From the NCBI GenBank assembly GCA_013824715.1, contig PNOH01000028.1, forward strand, positions 1 through 62,113: 62,113 bases of DNA, read 5' to 3'. The notes under the pieces are model-generated. The model ran no database searches. It saw only the letters and a list, made by a program, of their open reading frames with translations, and was not told the origin of the DNA. Each line of letters opens with the position of its first letter. Within the stretch, counting starts at the first letter, position 1. Both the position numbers and the translations under genes were made by a program. Source of the stretch: Odoribacter sp. (lineage in GTDB: Bacteria > Bacteroidota > Bacteroidia > Bacteroidales > Prolixibacteraceae). Positions 16,625 through 62,113 of the stretch are shown in pieces.

Positions 16625-16641
16625 TCACTATCAATTTACGC

Positions 16642-16736
16642 AATGGGGTGCCTTCCTGGCGAGAGTCGGGGTAATTACAGGCTGAGATCACACCCACCGA
16701 ACCTGATACGGATAATGCCGGCGAAGGGATGGCGAA
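16642..16736 (+). promoter_or_regulatory. TPP riboswitch (THI element)
   Basis: This carries the conserved thiamin pyrophosphate aptamer: GGGGTGCC opening strand (16,645), CTGAGATCACACCC (pyrimidine-sensing arm, 16,682) and ACCTGATACGGATAATGCCGG (here ACCTGAT, GGATAATGCCGG; pyrophosphate-sensing arm, 16,701-16,722), closed by GCGAAGGGA. It lies 50 bp before the ATG of the TonB receptor and shows no strong terminator stem with a T-run. The only downstream hairpin is TGGTTA/TAACCA at 16,756-16,772, so control may be at translation. High TPP should switch the receptor off. Confidence 0.96.
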
Positions 16737-16786
16737 AGGGACTTACTTGCCTCATTGGTTATTTATTAACCATTTAAAAAACAAGA

Positions 16787-19273
16787 ATGAAACGGATTTA
16801 TTTGACATTGCTTTTGCAATGTGCGGTGTTTATGGCAATCGCCCAATTTACACTGAAAGGAACGGTTAAAAATGAAGCAGGCGAATGGCTTGTTGGCGCT
16901 AACCTGGCTATCCCGAACAGTTTTACTTTGAGTAACTCATCCGATGACTCAAAGTCATCGGATGAGTTACGGACATCAACCGATTTAAACGGAATGTTTC
17001 AGTTTAAAAACCTGAAAGCCGGAAAATATCAACTGACGATTTCTTACATCGGTTTTGAAAAACAAACACTGGAAGTTAATCTTATCGGTGATCAAACTCT
17101 GGATGTCGTACTGAAACAGGCCATCTTTATGACTGAAGAAATTCTGATCTCGGCTAACCGGGTCAAGGAAAAAACTCCGGTTGCCTTTACAACTGTTGAA
17201 AAATCAGAAATCAGGAATAACAATTTAGGGCAGGATATTCCATATCTGCTTGGATTGACGCCTTCATTTGTAACTACTTCGGATGCCGGAACTGGCGTGG
17301 GCTATACCAGTTTCAGGATACGTGGAACCGACATGAACCGGATTAATGTGACGGTGAACGGCATCCCGATGAACGATGCAGAATCGCACGGTACCTGGTG
17401 GGTTGATATTCCCGATCTGGCTTCTTCGACCGATAACATTCAGGTGCAGCGTGGCGTTGGTACTTCAACCAATGGCGCCGCAGCTTTTGGGGCAACGATT
17501 AATCTGCAAACCACCAGGATTAATAAAGACGCTTCTGCCGAATACAGCGCTTCGGCGGGTTCATTCGGAACAATGAAAAATACAGTTGGGGTGAGTTCCG
17601 GACGGATCAACGGGAAATTTTCGTTCGACGCCCGCTTATCTAAAATTAGTTCCGATGGATTTATTGACCGTGCCTCCTCAAACCTGAAATCCTTTTTTAT
17701 TTCCGGAGGGTATTTTACGGCAAATTCGATCCTGAAAGTCAATATTTTTTCAGGACTGGAAGAAACATATCAGGCATGGAATGGAGTGCCTTCAGTACGT
17801 TTGAACAACGATTTGGCCGGGATGCAACGTTATGCCGACCATTGGCTCTATTCGCAGAAGCAAGTGGATGAGATGGTTGATTCCGACAACCGCACATACA
17901 ATATGTACACATACGAAAATGAAGTTGATCACTATCAGCAGGATCATTATCAGGCCTTGTTTTCGCATCAGATCAATGAATTGTTCAGTGTAAATGCCAG
18001 CCTGTTTTATACTGCAGGAAAAGGTTACTACGAACAATACAAAGCGGGCCAGAAATTAGCTGATTACCTGATTACTCCTCCTGTTTATGGTGGTGAGATC
18101 ATTAAAAAGTCGGATTTGATCAGACGGAAATGGCTCGATAATGATTTCTACGGAATGACCTTTTCGGTCAACAGGAAACAGGAAACCCGTGAATTTACCT
18201 TCGGCGGCGGATACAACGTTTACGACGGTAATCATTTCGGAAAAGTAATCTGGATGCGCAATGCCGGAAATTCAGATTTGAACCATGAATGGTACCGGGG
18301 TACCGGTCTGAAAAAGGATTTTAACCTGTATGCCAAATATTATTACGAGCTTGCCGAAAACCTGAACCTGTTTGCTGATTTGCAGTACCGGAAAATTGAT
18401 TACCAGATTGATGGAACGGATGATGATTTGCGTGGCCTGAAACAATCGCACAAATTTGAGTTTTTCAATCCTAAGGTTGGTATTTATTACCTGTTGAATG
18501 AAAAGCAAAGCCTGTACGTTAACTTTGCGCGTGCCAACCGGGAACCCAACCGCGACAATTATGTGGATGCCGATCCAAAAGGAAAACAACCTGAATTTGA
18601 GACCTTGAATGATTTTGAATTCGGCTACAAATACAATTCCAGCCGCCTGGCTTTGGGAGTGAATGCCTATTACATGATGTACCAGAACCAGTTAATCCTG
18701 ACTGGAGAAATCAATGACGTGGGCGCGCCAATCATGACCAATGTTGACAACAGTTACCGCGCCGGACTGGAACTTATGGCCGGAATGAAGCTTTCTGAGA
18801 AATTGAAATGGGATGTAAACCTGACATTCAGCAAAAATAAAATTCAGGATTTTACCGATTTTGTTGATGATTGGGACAATGGCGGACAAATTGAAACCAA
18901 ACTGGGAAGCACTGACCTTGCCTTTTCTCCGGAACTGATTGCCAACAGCCAGCTTAGCTGGAAGGCTGTCAAAGGTTTAAACATTAGCCTGCAATCGTAT
19001 TCAGTAAGCAGTCAATACATAGACAATACATCAAGCAATGATCGCAAACTGGATGCCTACCTATTGAATAATCTGAAATTTACTTATCATGTTCCCCAGA
19101 AATTCGCCAAAGAGTTTAACCTTCACCTGATGGTAAATAACCTTTTCAATACCGAATATGAAAGCAATGCCTGGGTTTATTCCTATGTTTTGGAAGGTGA
19201 GCGATATGCGATGGACGGTTATTTTCCACAAGCCGGAATCAATTTTATGGCTGGATTGGATATTAAATTCTAA
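16787..19273 (+). CDS. TonB-dependent receptor, probable thiamin(-precursor) transporter
   Basis: An 828-residue outer-membrane receptor. It has a signal peptide (cleavage near IAQF), a carboxypeptidase-regulatory-like domain (about 23-108), a plug domain (about 120-240, with the INVTVNGIPMNDAESHGTW strand including NGIPMNDAE) and a 22-strand barrel ending in the aromatic terminal strand MAGLDIKF. The TPP riboswitch directly upstream implies thiamin or a thiamin precursor as ligand; riboswitch-controlled receptors of this kind are known in Bacteroidota. It is monocistronic, with no partner permease adjacent. A perfect palindrome is inserted in frame at 16,932-16,970, adding an Asp/Ser-rich loop (NSSDDSKSSDEL). 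Confidence 0.93.
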   Translation: MKRIYLTLLLQCAVFMAIAQFTLKGTVKNEAGEWLVGANLAIPNSFTLSNSSDDSKSSDELRTSTDLNGMFQFKNLKAGKYQLTISYIGFEKQTLEVNLIGDQTLDVVLKQAIFMTEEILISANRVKEKTPVAFTTVEKSEIRNNNLGQDIPYLLGLTPSFVTTSDAGTGVGYTSFRIRGTDMNRINVTVNGIPMNDAESHGTWWVDIPDLASSTDNIQVQRGVGTSTNGAAAFGATINLQTTRINKDASAEYSASAGSFGTMKNTVGVSSGRINGKFSFDARLSKISSDGFIDRASSNLKSFFISGGYFTANSILKVNIFSGLEETYQAWNGVPSVRLNNDLAGMQRYADHWLYSQKQVDEMVDSDNRTYNMYTYENEVDHYQQDHYQALFSHQINELFSVNASLFYTAGKGYYEQYKAGQKLADYLITPPVYGGEIIKKSDLIRRKWLDNDFYGMTFSVNRKQETREFTFGGGYNVYDGNHFGKVIWMRNAGNSDLNHEWYRGTGLKKDFNLYAKYYYELAENLNLFADLQYRKIDYQIDGTDDDLRGLKQSHKFEFFNPKVGIYYLLNEKQSLYVNFARANREPNRDNYVDADPKGKQPEFETLNDFEFGYKYNSSRLALGVNAYYMMYQNQLILTGEINDVGAPIMTNVDNSYRAGLELMAGMKLSEKLKWDVNLTFSKNKIQDFTDFVDDWDNGGQIETKLGSTDLAFSPELIANSQLSWKAVKGLNISLQSYSVSSQYIDNTSSNDRKLDAYLLNNLKFTYHVPQKFAKEFNLHLMVNNLFNTEYESNAWVYSYVLEGERYAMDGYFPQAGINFMAGLDIKF
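16932..16970. repeat. Perfect palindromic element inside the TonB receptor gene
   Basis: GTAACTCATCCGATGACT, loop CAA, then its exact reverse complement: an 18-bp stem with a 3-nt loop. It is in frame and stop-free, encoding a polar loop between two strands of the N-terminal domain. A similarly built palindrome lies at 61,796-61,832. Confidence 0.95.
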
Positions 19274-19280
19274 GGGAAAT

Positions 19281-19363
19281 GTTACGGGTTACGGGTTGCG
19301 GGTTGCGAACAACACGTAACCCGTAACATTTTCATTGCTAACTGTGACTGAACACTGCCAACT
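19281..19363. repeat. Composite 3'-end repeat: GGTTACGG inverted repeat plus CAGT-type words
   Basis: GTTACGGGTTACG (19,281) pairs exactly with CGTAACCCGTAAC (19,315), with GGTTGCGGGTTGCG between; 12 bp later comes AACTGTGACTGAACACTGCC. The same two-part arrangement occurs at 53,023-53,111. It lies between two convergent genes and may act as a terminator. Confidence 0.75.
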
Positions 19364-57424: not shown

Positions 57425-57638
57425 CAGTTATCAAATGTTTTTTGAAATCCTGAAAGGATTTAATATCAATAGCCCCGGATGGAATCCGGGGTAAAATAGC
57501 GATAATGAACAACAACCCTGCAAAGGGTTGAATATCAGAAATGAACAAATTCAACCCTTTGCAGGGTTGCAAAAACTATCTTTACCTTACCCACTGAGTT
57601 TCACTCAGGGCTATTCACATTCAACCACTCGTGGTTAT
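57425..57638 (+). repeat. Composite palindromic repeat, copy 1 (inverted copy at 61,903-62,113)
   Basis: A ~214-bp non-coding element, nearly identical in reverse orientation to 61,903-62,113. It includes AAATCC/GGATTT, CCCCGGAT/ATCCGGGG, and a perfect 21-bp stem starting CAACCCTGCAAAGGGTTG (57,513-57,533 with 57,549-57,569). Preceding it, AACGCC/GGCGTT (57,328-57,346) and other small palindromes fill the gap 57,266-57,424. Confidence 0.92.
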
Positions 57639-61795: not shown

Positions 61796-61832
61796 TTACT
61801 CAGGGCCTGACTCGAAGTCAGGCCCTGAGTAA
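61796..61832. repeat. Perfect palindromic element (sibling of 16,932-16,970)
   Basis: TTACTCAGGGCCTGACT, loop CGA, then its exact reverse complement (17-bp stem, 3-nt loop). It shares the ACTCA...TGACT plan with the palindrome inside the thiamin receptor gene. It may serve as the terminator of the DUF438-cupin operon. Confidence 0.9.
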
Positions 61833-61902: not shown

Positions 61903-62113
61903 AACCACGAGTGGTTGAATGTGAATAGCCCTGAGTGAAACTCTGGGGTAAGGTAAAGATAGTTTTTGCAACCCTGCAAAGGGTTGAATTTGTTCATTTC
62001 TGATATTCAACCCTTTGCAGGGTTGTTATTCATTGTCGCTATTTTACCCCGGATTCCATCCAGGGCTATTGATATTAAATCCCTTCAGGATTTCAAAAAA
62101 CATTTGATAACTG
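61903..62113 (-). repeat. Composite palindromic repeat, copy 2 (cut by the window edge)
   Basis: The reverse complement of 57,425-57,638 with only a few substitutions and a small indel. It may continue past the window end. The 70 bp between it and the palindrome at 61,796 show no feature. Confidence 0.9.

Follow-up and report, generated by a model that had tools for sequence, protein, structure and literature searches.

A REP-like palindrome inserted in frame in a TonB-dependent receptor gene of Prolixibacteraceae and its probable link to RAYT transposases

It has long been known that bacterial genes can contain in-frame palindromes, and to our knowledge no clear engine has been found for them; likewise, we know of no mobiliser for the palindromic elements of Rickettsia. 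According to the accessible text of Di Nocera et al. 2013 (PMC3733652), the Rickettsia elements RPE-1, RPE-4 and RPE-6 are inserted in frame in many genes, and intragenic GTAG/CGTC REPs with tagged ends are short in-frame palindromes, most other copies being intergenic; both the in-frame insertion and the intergenic majority recur in the palindromes analysed here. The REPtrons of TnpA_REP subclass 2.4 (RAYT group 4), as presented in the accessible part of Quentin et al. 2018 (PMC6006769), share with the present system a RAYT-like HUH protein of Bacteroidota, a variable insertion between the HUH and Y motifs, and palindromes that lie in frame in the transposase gene as well as flanking it; GT[AG]G-tagged REPs are found near most genes of this subclass, and its motifs are WQ and YIxNNP. 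Since in-frame REPs in genes, even inside tnpA_REP genes, are already published in the accessible text of these two papers, their principle is not new. The E. coli REP is characterised by GTAG and a bulged stem, and E. coli TnpA_REP is reported, in the part of the paper available to us, to cleave and recombine REPs in vitro (PMC8266576). REP and REPtron systems are a nearer comparison for the present locus than the Rickettsia elements, because in relatives the palindrome family accompanies a RAYT gene. A literature survey at the level of titles and abstract openings, covering few subscription papers, found no Bacteroidota description beyond PMC6006769.

The window, i.e. the whole stretch of 62,113 nt analysed, contains a perfect palindrome at positions 16932-16970 (+), with 18-nt arms (16932-16949 and 16953-16970) that are 100% complementary and a 3-nt loop, CAA (16950-16952); the core plan occupies 16935-16967. 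The palindrome is located in a TonB-dependent receptor gene (16787-19273, + strand) encoding an 828-aa protein with CarboxypepD_reg, Plug and beta-barrel domains, and its site is within the N-terminal carboxypeptidase-regulatory-like domain. The frame is intact, and the open reading frame reads NSSDDSKSSDEL across the palindrome with no stop codon. The preliminary description, which had reported a perfect 18-bp palindrome with a 3-nt loop forming an in-frame, stop-free element of 39 bp, was thus accurate on these points. The same plan, searched with at most three mismatches, occurs at two sites in the window and at none in 100 shuffles. Folded as RNA, a 59-nt stretch with the palindrome reaches -30.2 kcal/mol (z -9.0), which none of 200 shuffles equalled, and its arm score of 18 was reached by none of 1000 synonymous-codon shuffles. 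Since neither the sequence shuffles nor the synonymous-codon shuffles match it, a chance origin of the palindrome is very unlikely.

The other site in the window, at 61796-61832 (no strand assigned), had also been pointed out previously as a sibling on the same plan, correctly so: it has 17-bp perfect arms and a different stem core, GGGCC. The sole open reading frame of at least 60 aa over it is a 103-aa reverse one, here taken as spurious, and the sibling is taken as intergenic. A second repeat is present in the window at 57513-57569 and 61969-62025, where identical palindromes of the CAACCCTGCAAAGGGTTGAAT type have 21-bp arms and 15-nt loops.

Orthologues of the receptor were searched for in 101 genomes including the own genome, of which 85 gave a match at E 1e-30. 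Thirty loci were fetched, one being the own gene, and 24 of the 29 others were aligned with it (25 rows). All 29 are 13-15 codons shorter across the matched N-terminal part, and all 24 aligned relatives, 18 of them congeneric, lack 42 nt where the palindrome stands. At this site the own protein has NSFTLSNSSDDSKSSDELRTSTD, as against, for example, NSFSGTTTD in relatives. Because all 24 aligned relatives are gapped there, the receptor palindrome was inserted into the gene, the frame of which remains open. The extra stretch suggested earlier from comparison with related receptors is borne out, and an ancient loop carried by all orthologues is contradicted. The proposed size of 39 holds for the palindrome itself; the net insertion relative to the orthologues is instead 42 nt, or 14 codons, at about 16928-16969 (+), with edges uncertain by a few nucleotides. 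A TPP riboswitch (RF00059, 64.5 bits) is found at 16634-16746, just 5' of the gene, so the substrate of the receptor is probably thiamine or a relative. An imperfect 27-nt inverted repeat covers the end of the receptor reading frame and the region just beyond it (19272-19336).

The exact plan ACTCAn5TGACTn3AGTCAn5TGAGT occurs eight times in the own genome (4.6 Mb), with three more copies at two mismatches, and the reversed control gave none in either search. Across the family Prolixibacteraceae it was found in 30 of 140 genomes and 10 of 23 genera, in 153 copies (control 0). The alternative that the genome holds no other copies is thereby contradicted, and the earlier proposal that this is a protein-coding palindromic element, possibly of a type belonging to Bacteroidota, gains support from the empty sites and these further copies. 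For the analysis of stems and gene context, 92 of the 153 counted copies were collected, so most of the copy-rich genomes are only partly sampled. The arms are perfect in 71 of these copies and imperfect in 21, and the middle five bases of the stem, left free by the plan search, take 17 forms. Genes are avoided: only eight of the 92 fall inside one, which is a RAYT gene in a single case, versus 78 expected at the coding density of the window (0.849). The family is thus dispersed and mostly outside genes, with many stem versions that are mostly self-complementary; in being short, multi-copy and mostly intergenic, it agrees with REP elements. Within the arms of 91 distinct RAYT-locus stems, most positions show a tendency towards self-pairing, position 2 being the exception; this trend was counted across related sequences with kinship ignored, and between-arm pairing is partly built into the set, the hairpins having been preselected as palindromes. 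This pairing within arms makes the element resemble two small palindromes joined into a larger one. On contigs C3, C28 and C72 of the own genome, palindromes or a RAYT gene are close to the contig ends. The assembly may have been broken at these features, and own-genome copies may therefore have been missed.

Copies were assigned to genes if an open reading frame of at least 110 aa extended about 20 aa before and 15 aa after the element, which listed 12 rows. The count of eight leaves out the L038 reverse reading frame, L054, L107, where the stretch lies before a likely later start, and L123; it includes the L038 copy within a 433-aa reading frame. L117 resembles the cusB-like region discussed below, and no reading frame there passed the filter. 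Six of the in-gene copies are in phase 0, two in phase 1 and none in the phase with a built-in TGA. Together with the TonB receptor, cusB-like and murF-alr genes show that the in-frame insertion affects unrelated genes. The cusB-like adaptor gene encodes a product with HlyD_D23 and HMA domains, and 15 of the 25 loci given were compared, duplicates and loci without the matched motif being dropped. The linker before the HMA domain holds a scored palindrome (11-16) in 6 of the 15 genes, with five stem types at differing distances from the HMA domain, and a decayed or half palindrome was seen by eye in two further linkers. The five stem types and varied distances point to separate insertions, as judged from these sequences.

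Another host gene, presumably murF-alr, encodes a product with Mur ligase and alanine racemase domains and was matched in 20 of 23 congeneric genomes. It contains one palindrome copy plus a half in two genomes (G008 and G022), a different stem at the same place in a third (G003) and an expanded run of half-palindromes in a fourth (G019), while the protein alignment reveals no palindrome in the other 16 of the 20. In the gene of G019 (L349), which is probably essential, the half-palindromes stand in tandem and in frame and yield five copies of KSPAEY. In G011 (L331) the corresponding sequence is TATTCTGGAGAGTAT, possibly left behind by a copy since lost, or else due to chance.

At four loci (L062, L064, L124 and L137) copies of the plan occur in pairs spaced 394-768 bp, with a RAYT gene between or across the pair; no RAYT gene was seen between the paired copies at L140 and L107. 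The RAYT clade was found by protein search with one of the RAYTs of these loci, which detected relatives in 87 of the 140 family genomes at E 1e-15. Profile PF01797, applied to three of the RAYTs, gave 17.8 bits for one (cut-off 23) and nothing for two, and NCBIfam NF047646 gave 57.9 bits, below its cut-off of 80. The structure predicted for the RAYT of Alkalitalea saponilacus (L314) has pLDDT below 50 at residues 71-88 and 150-153, the palindrome corresponding to residues 78-88. The best PDB match of the RAYT model is 4er8, the E. coli TnpA_REP with a REP hairpin (E 1.2e-6, 14% identity), which is also the sole sequence match up to E 0.1. Both structure and sequence thus place the RAYT in the HUH/Y1 TnpA_REP fold, which it shares with the E. 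coli enzyme.

Hairpins were scored in two sets of RAYT genes, which overlap (e.g. L144 and L265). In 58 delimited loci out of 80, a flanking hairpin was present at 49 and an internal one at 38. The second set comprised the best 80 of 243 relatives, mostly from Prolixibacteraceae by their titles, with other Bacteroidales or Marinilabiliales, Flavobacteriaceae and other Bacteroidota; 74 reading frames were delimited, the region being set to a fixed length in those that lacked the end motif. Among these, hairpins were internal in 52, upstream in 44, downstream in 40 and elsewhere in the gene in 6, and 22 of the 74 had no internal palindrome at the threshold used. The internal hairpin follows the HUH motif in frame and precedes the next conserved stretch, so that these RAYTs carry a REP-derived in-frame insertion between the HUH and Y motifs. 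In comparison with synonymous shuffles, 28 of the 58 loci of the first set had none as good in 200, and 48 of 70 (70 of the 80 loci) none as good in 100; the internal palindromes thus exceed what the protein sequence requires. The exact stem of the receptor palindrome was found inside two RAYT genes, those of A. saponilacus and of a MAG (L306). The IS200-like genes of the own genome were considered as partners and rejected: of 11 PF01797 matches, two at loci cut by contig ends, none has a plan palindrome within 1.5 kb, and ten, which have a reading frame, are by eye short IS200-type proteins.

In relatives, RAYT genes are flanked by their own palindrome version, and the versions around and inside the gene match each other. 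Internal stems match their own flanks at 22.0 of 24 positions versus 14.2 of 24 for other loci (33 loci, 41 internal hairpins). Leaving the variable part aside, 266 RAYT pairs share at least 60% identity, and 188 of them have strongly different internal stems; in 156 of these 188, which are drawn from the 33 loci and are not independent, both RAYTs match their own flanks better than those of the partner. Counter-cases are L202 and L213, with internal stems unlike the flanking ones. Regarding the dispersed copies, GC[AG]GG stems account for 21 of 23 where the genome encodes a close RAYT of that type (six genomes) versus 18 of 69 elsewhere. These values become 22 of 26 versus 17 of 66 when G126 and G014, with that stem inside their RAYTs, are added; if copies from the four RAYT-bearing loci listed above are then set aside, the values are 16 of 20 versus 17 of 64.

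The presence of a RAYT in a genome was compared with that of palindromes at four E-value thresholds, kinship being ignored. At E 1e-30, a RAYT was matched in 21 of 30 genomes with palindromes versus 37 of 110 without; 9 of the 30 palindrome-bearing genomes had no match. RAYTs are therefore commoner with palindromes, in an association that is far from strict. The genome G001, assembled as one contig, bears four palindrome copies, and the RAYT search at E 1e-15 gave nothing there, indicating that copies outlast the enzyme or arrive without it.

The nearest RAYT of the own genome is encoded at the start of a contig (C72:23-685), which cuts off its upstream side. The protein is 76% identical to P0006 of G004, whose gene holds a ACTCATCCGATGA palindrome. 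The C72 gene has an internal palindrome with a stem unlike that of the receptor palindrome, and just downstream of it is an imperfect palindrome, GATCCGATGA...TCATCGGATC (TCCGATGA). In the own genome, no RAYT was found to be flanked by the exact stem of the receptor palindrome. From sequence comparison, the C72 protein is a plausible candidate for the enzyme acting on that palindrome.

The receptor element is very probably a copy of a dispersed family of REP-like palindromes moved by a RAYT/TnpA_REP HUH single-strand transposase. The enzyme would bind the folded palindrome on single-stranded DNA, cut beside it and join it to a new place, the cutting and joining being modelled on the in vitro activity reported for E. 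coli TnpA_REP (PMC8266576, accessible part). Within genes, insertions would survive only if their length is a multiple of three, only in the two reading phases without the built-in TGA and only where a loose loop or linker takes up the added peptide. Movement by RAYT is proposed here from sequences and not from an observed movement, cut or single-strand intermediate. A local origin of the palindrome by template switching, in which a hairpin copies itself by error, with no link to other copies, is extremely unlikely: its expected trace is indeed perfect arms with a short loop, and the stems do differ between copies, but the eight exact copies of one plan in the own genome, with none in the control, and the same plan at and inside RAYT genes, two of them with this very stem, contradict it.

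The very stable RNA fold and the TPP riboswitch just upstream would suit a regulatory hairpin (attenuator, terminator or mRNA stabiliser) selected in the receptor message. Such a role is nevertheless very improbable, as the palindrome lies inside the coding region and is absent from all 24 aligned relatives; two other copies (L002 and L010) are situated between divergently oriented reading frames, where a terminator makes little sense, which disfavours that version in particular. Finally, the family might be a passive miniature element moved by another enzyme, such as an IS transposase, with the RAYT gene merely one of its targets. Palindromes do occur inside the RAYT gene just as inside cusB and murF homologues, and G001 has copies and no RAYT match. 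However, stems of all three kinds (flanking, internal and dispersed) correspond to the RAYT type, and an HUH enzyme of the same fold is the one reported to act on REPs in vitro (PMC8266576, accessible part), so that we give passive movement very little credence.

Movement by RAYT being the preferred reading, it is also possible, as a tentative extension, that the RAYT gene carries its own target palindrome in its coding sequence and that internal, flanking and dispersed stems change together. If so, the coding copy would actively serve the system, either as a donor or as a tag for self-recognition, and would be swapped when the preference of the enzyme shifts; host proteins such as the TonB receptor, MurF-Alr and the CusB-like adaptor would have their loops rewritten in frame by the same exchange of stems. 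Here one in-frame palindrome family is tied by matching stems to a transposase gene holding the same kind of element, and the relatives of one host gene offer clean empty sites. It now becomes testable which enzyme spreads coding palindromes and whether new protein loops arise from them, even in murF-like genes.

The likeness to the Rickettsia elements concerns the manner of insertion; a difference is that a RAYT is indicated as the mobiliser here. A GT[AG]G tag, present in subclass 2.4 REPs (PMC6006769, accessible part), is absent from the present palindromes: it was found at the foot of none of the 92 copies, and at 2 of 86 RAYT-flanking palindromes versus 5 at a control offset. The ends of the REPs of Di Nocera et al. 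are likewise tagged, GT[AG]G being the only tag scored here; unlike those REPs, as their accessible text presents them, the present family offers an empty site in orthologues and a linker hit by several stems (PMC3733652). The distinctive features are thus the lack of the GT[AG]G tag, the clean empty sites, the repeated insertion into a linker and the joint stem change. At the W and Y motifs, the RAYTs mostly have LFQ or LFR and YIHxNP, some having YIHNNP, as read by eye from alignments of 9 and 28 sequences. These residues apparently differ from the WQ and YIxNNP of subclass 2.4 (PMC6006769, accessible part), on the basis of our own alignments only. A second RAYT clade, with the HUH motif at residue 49 and TTAGCGG-like flanking palindromes, was observed at five loci (L175, L206, L209, L212 and L214).
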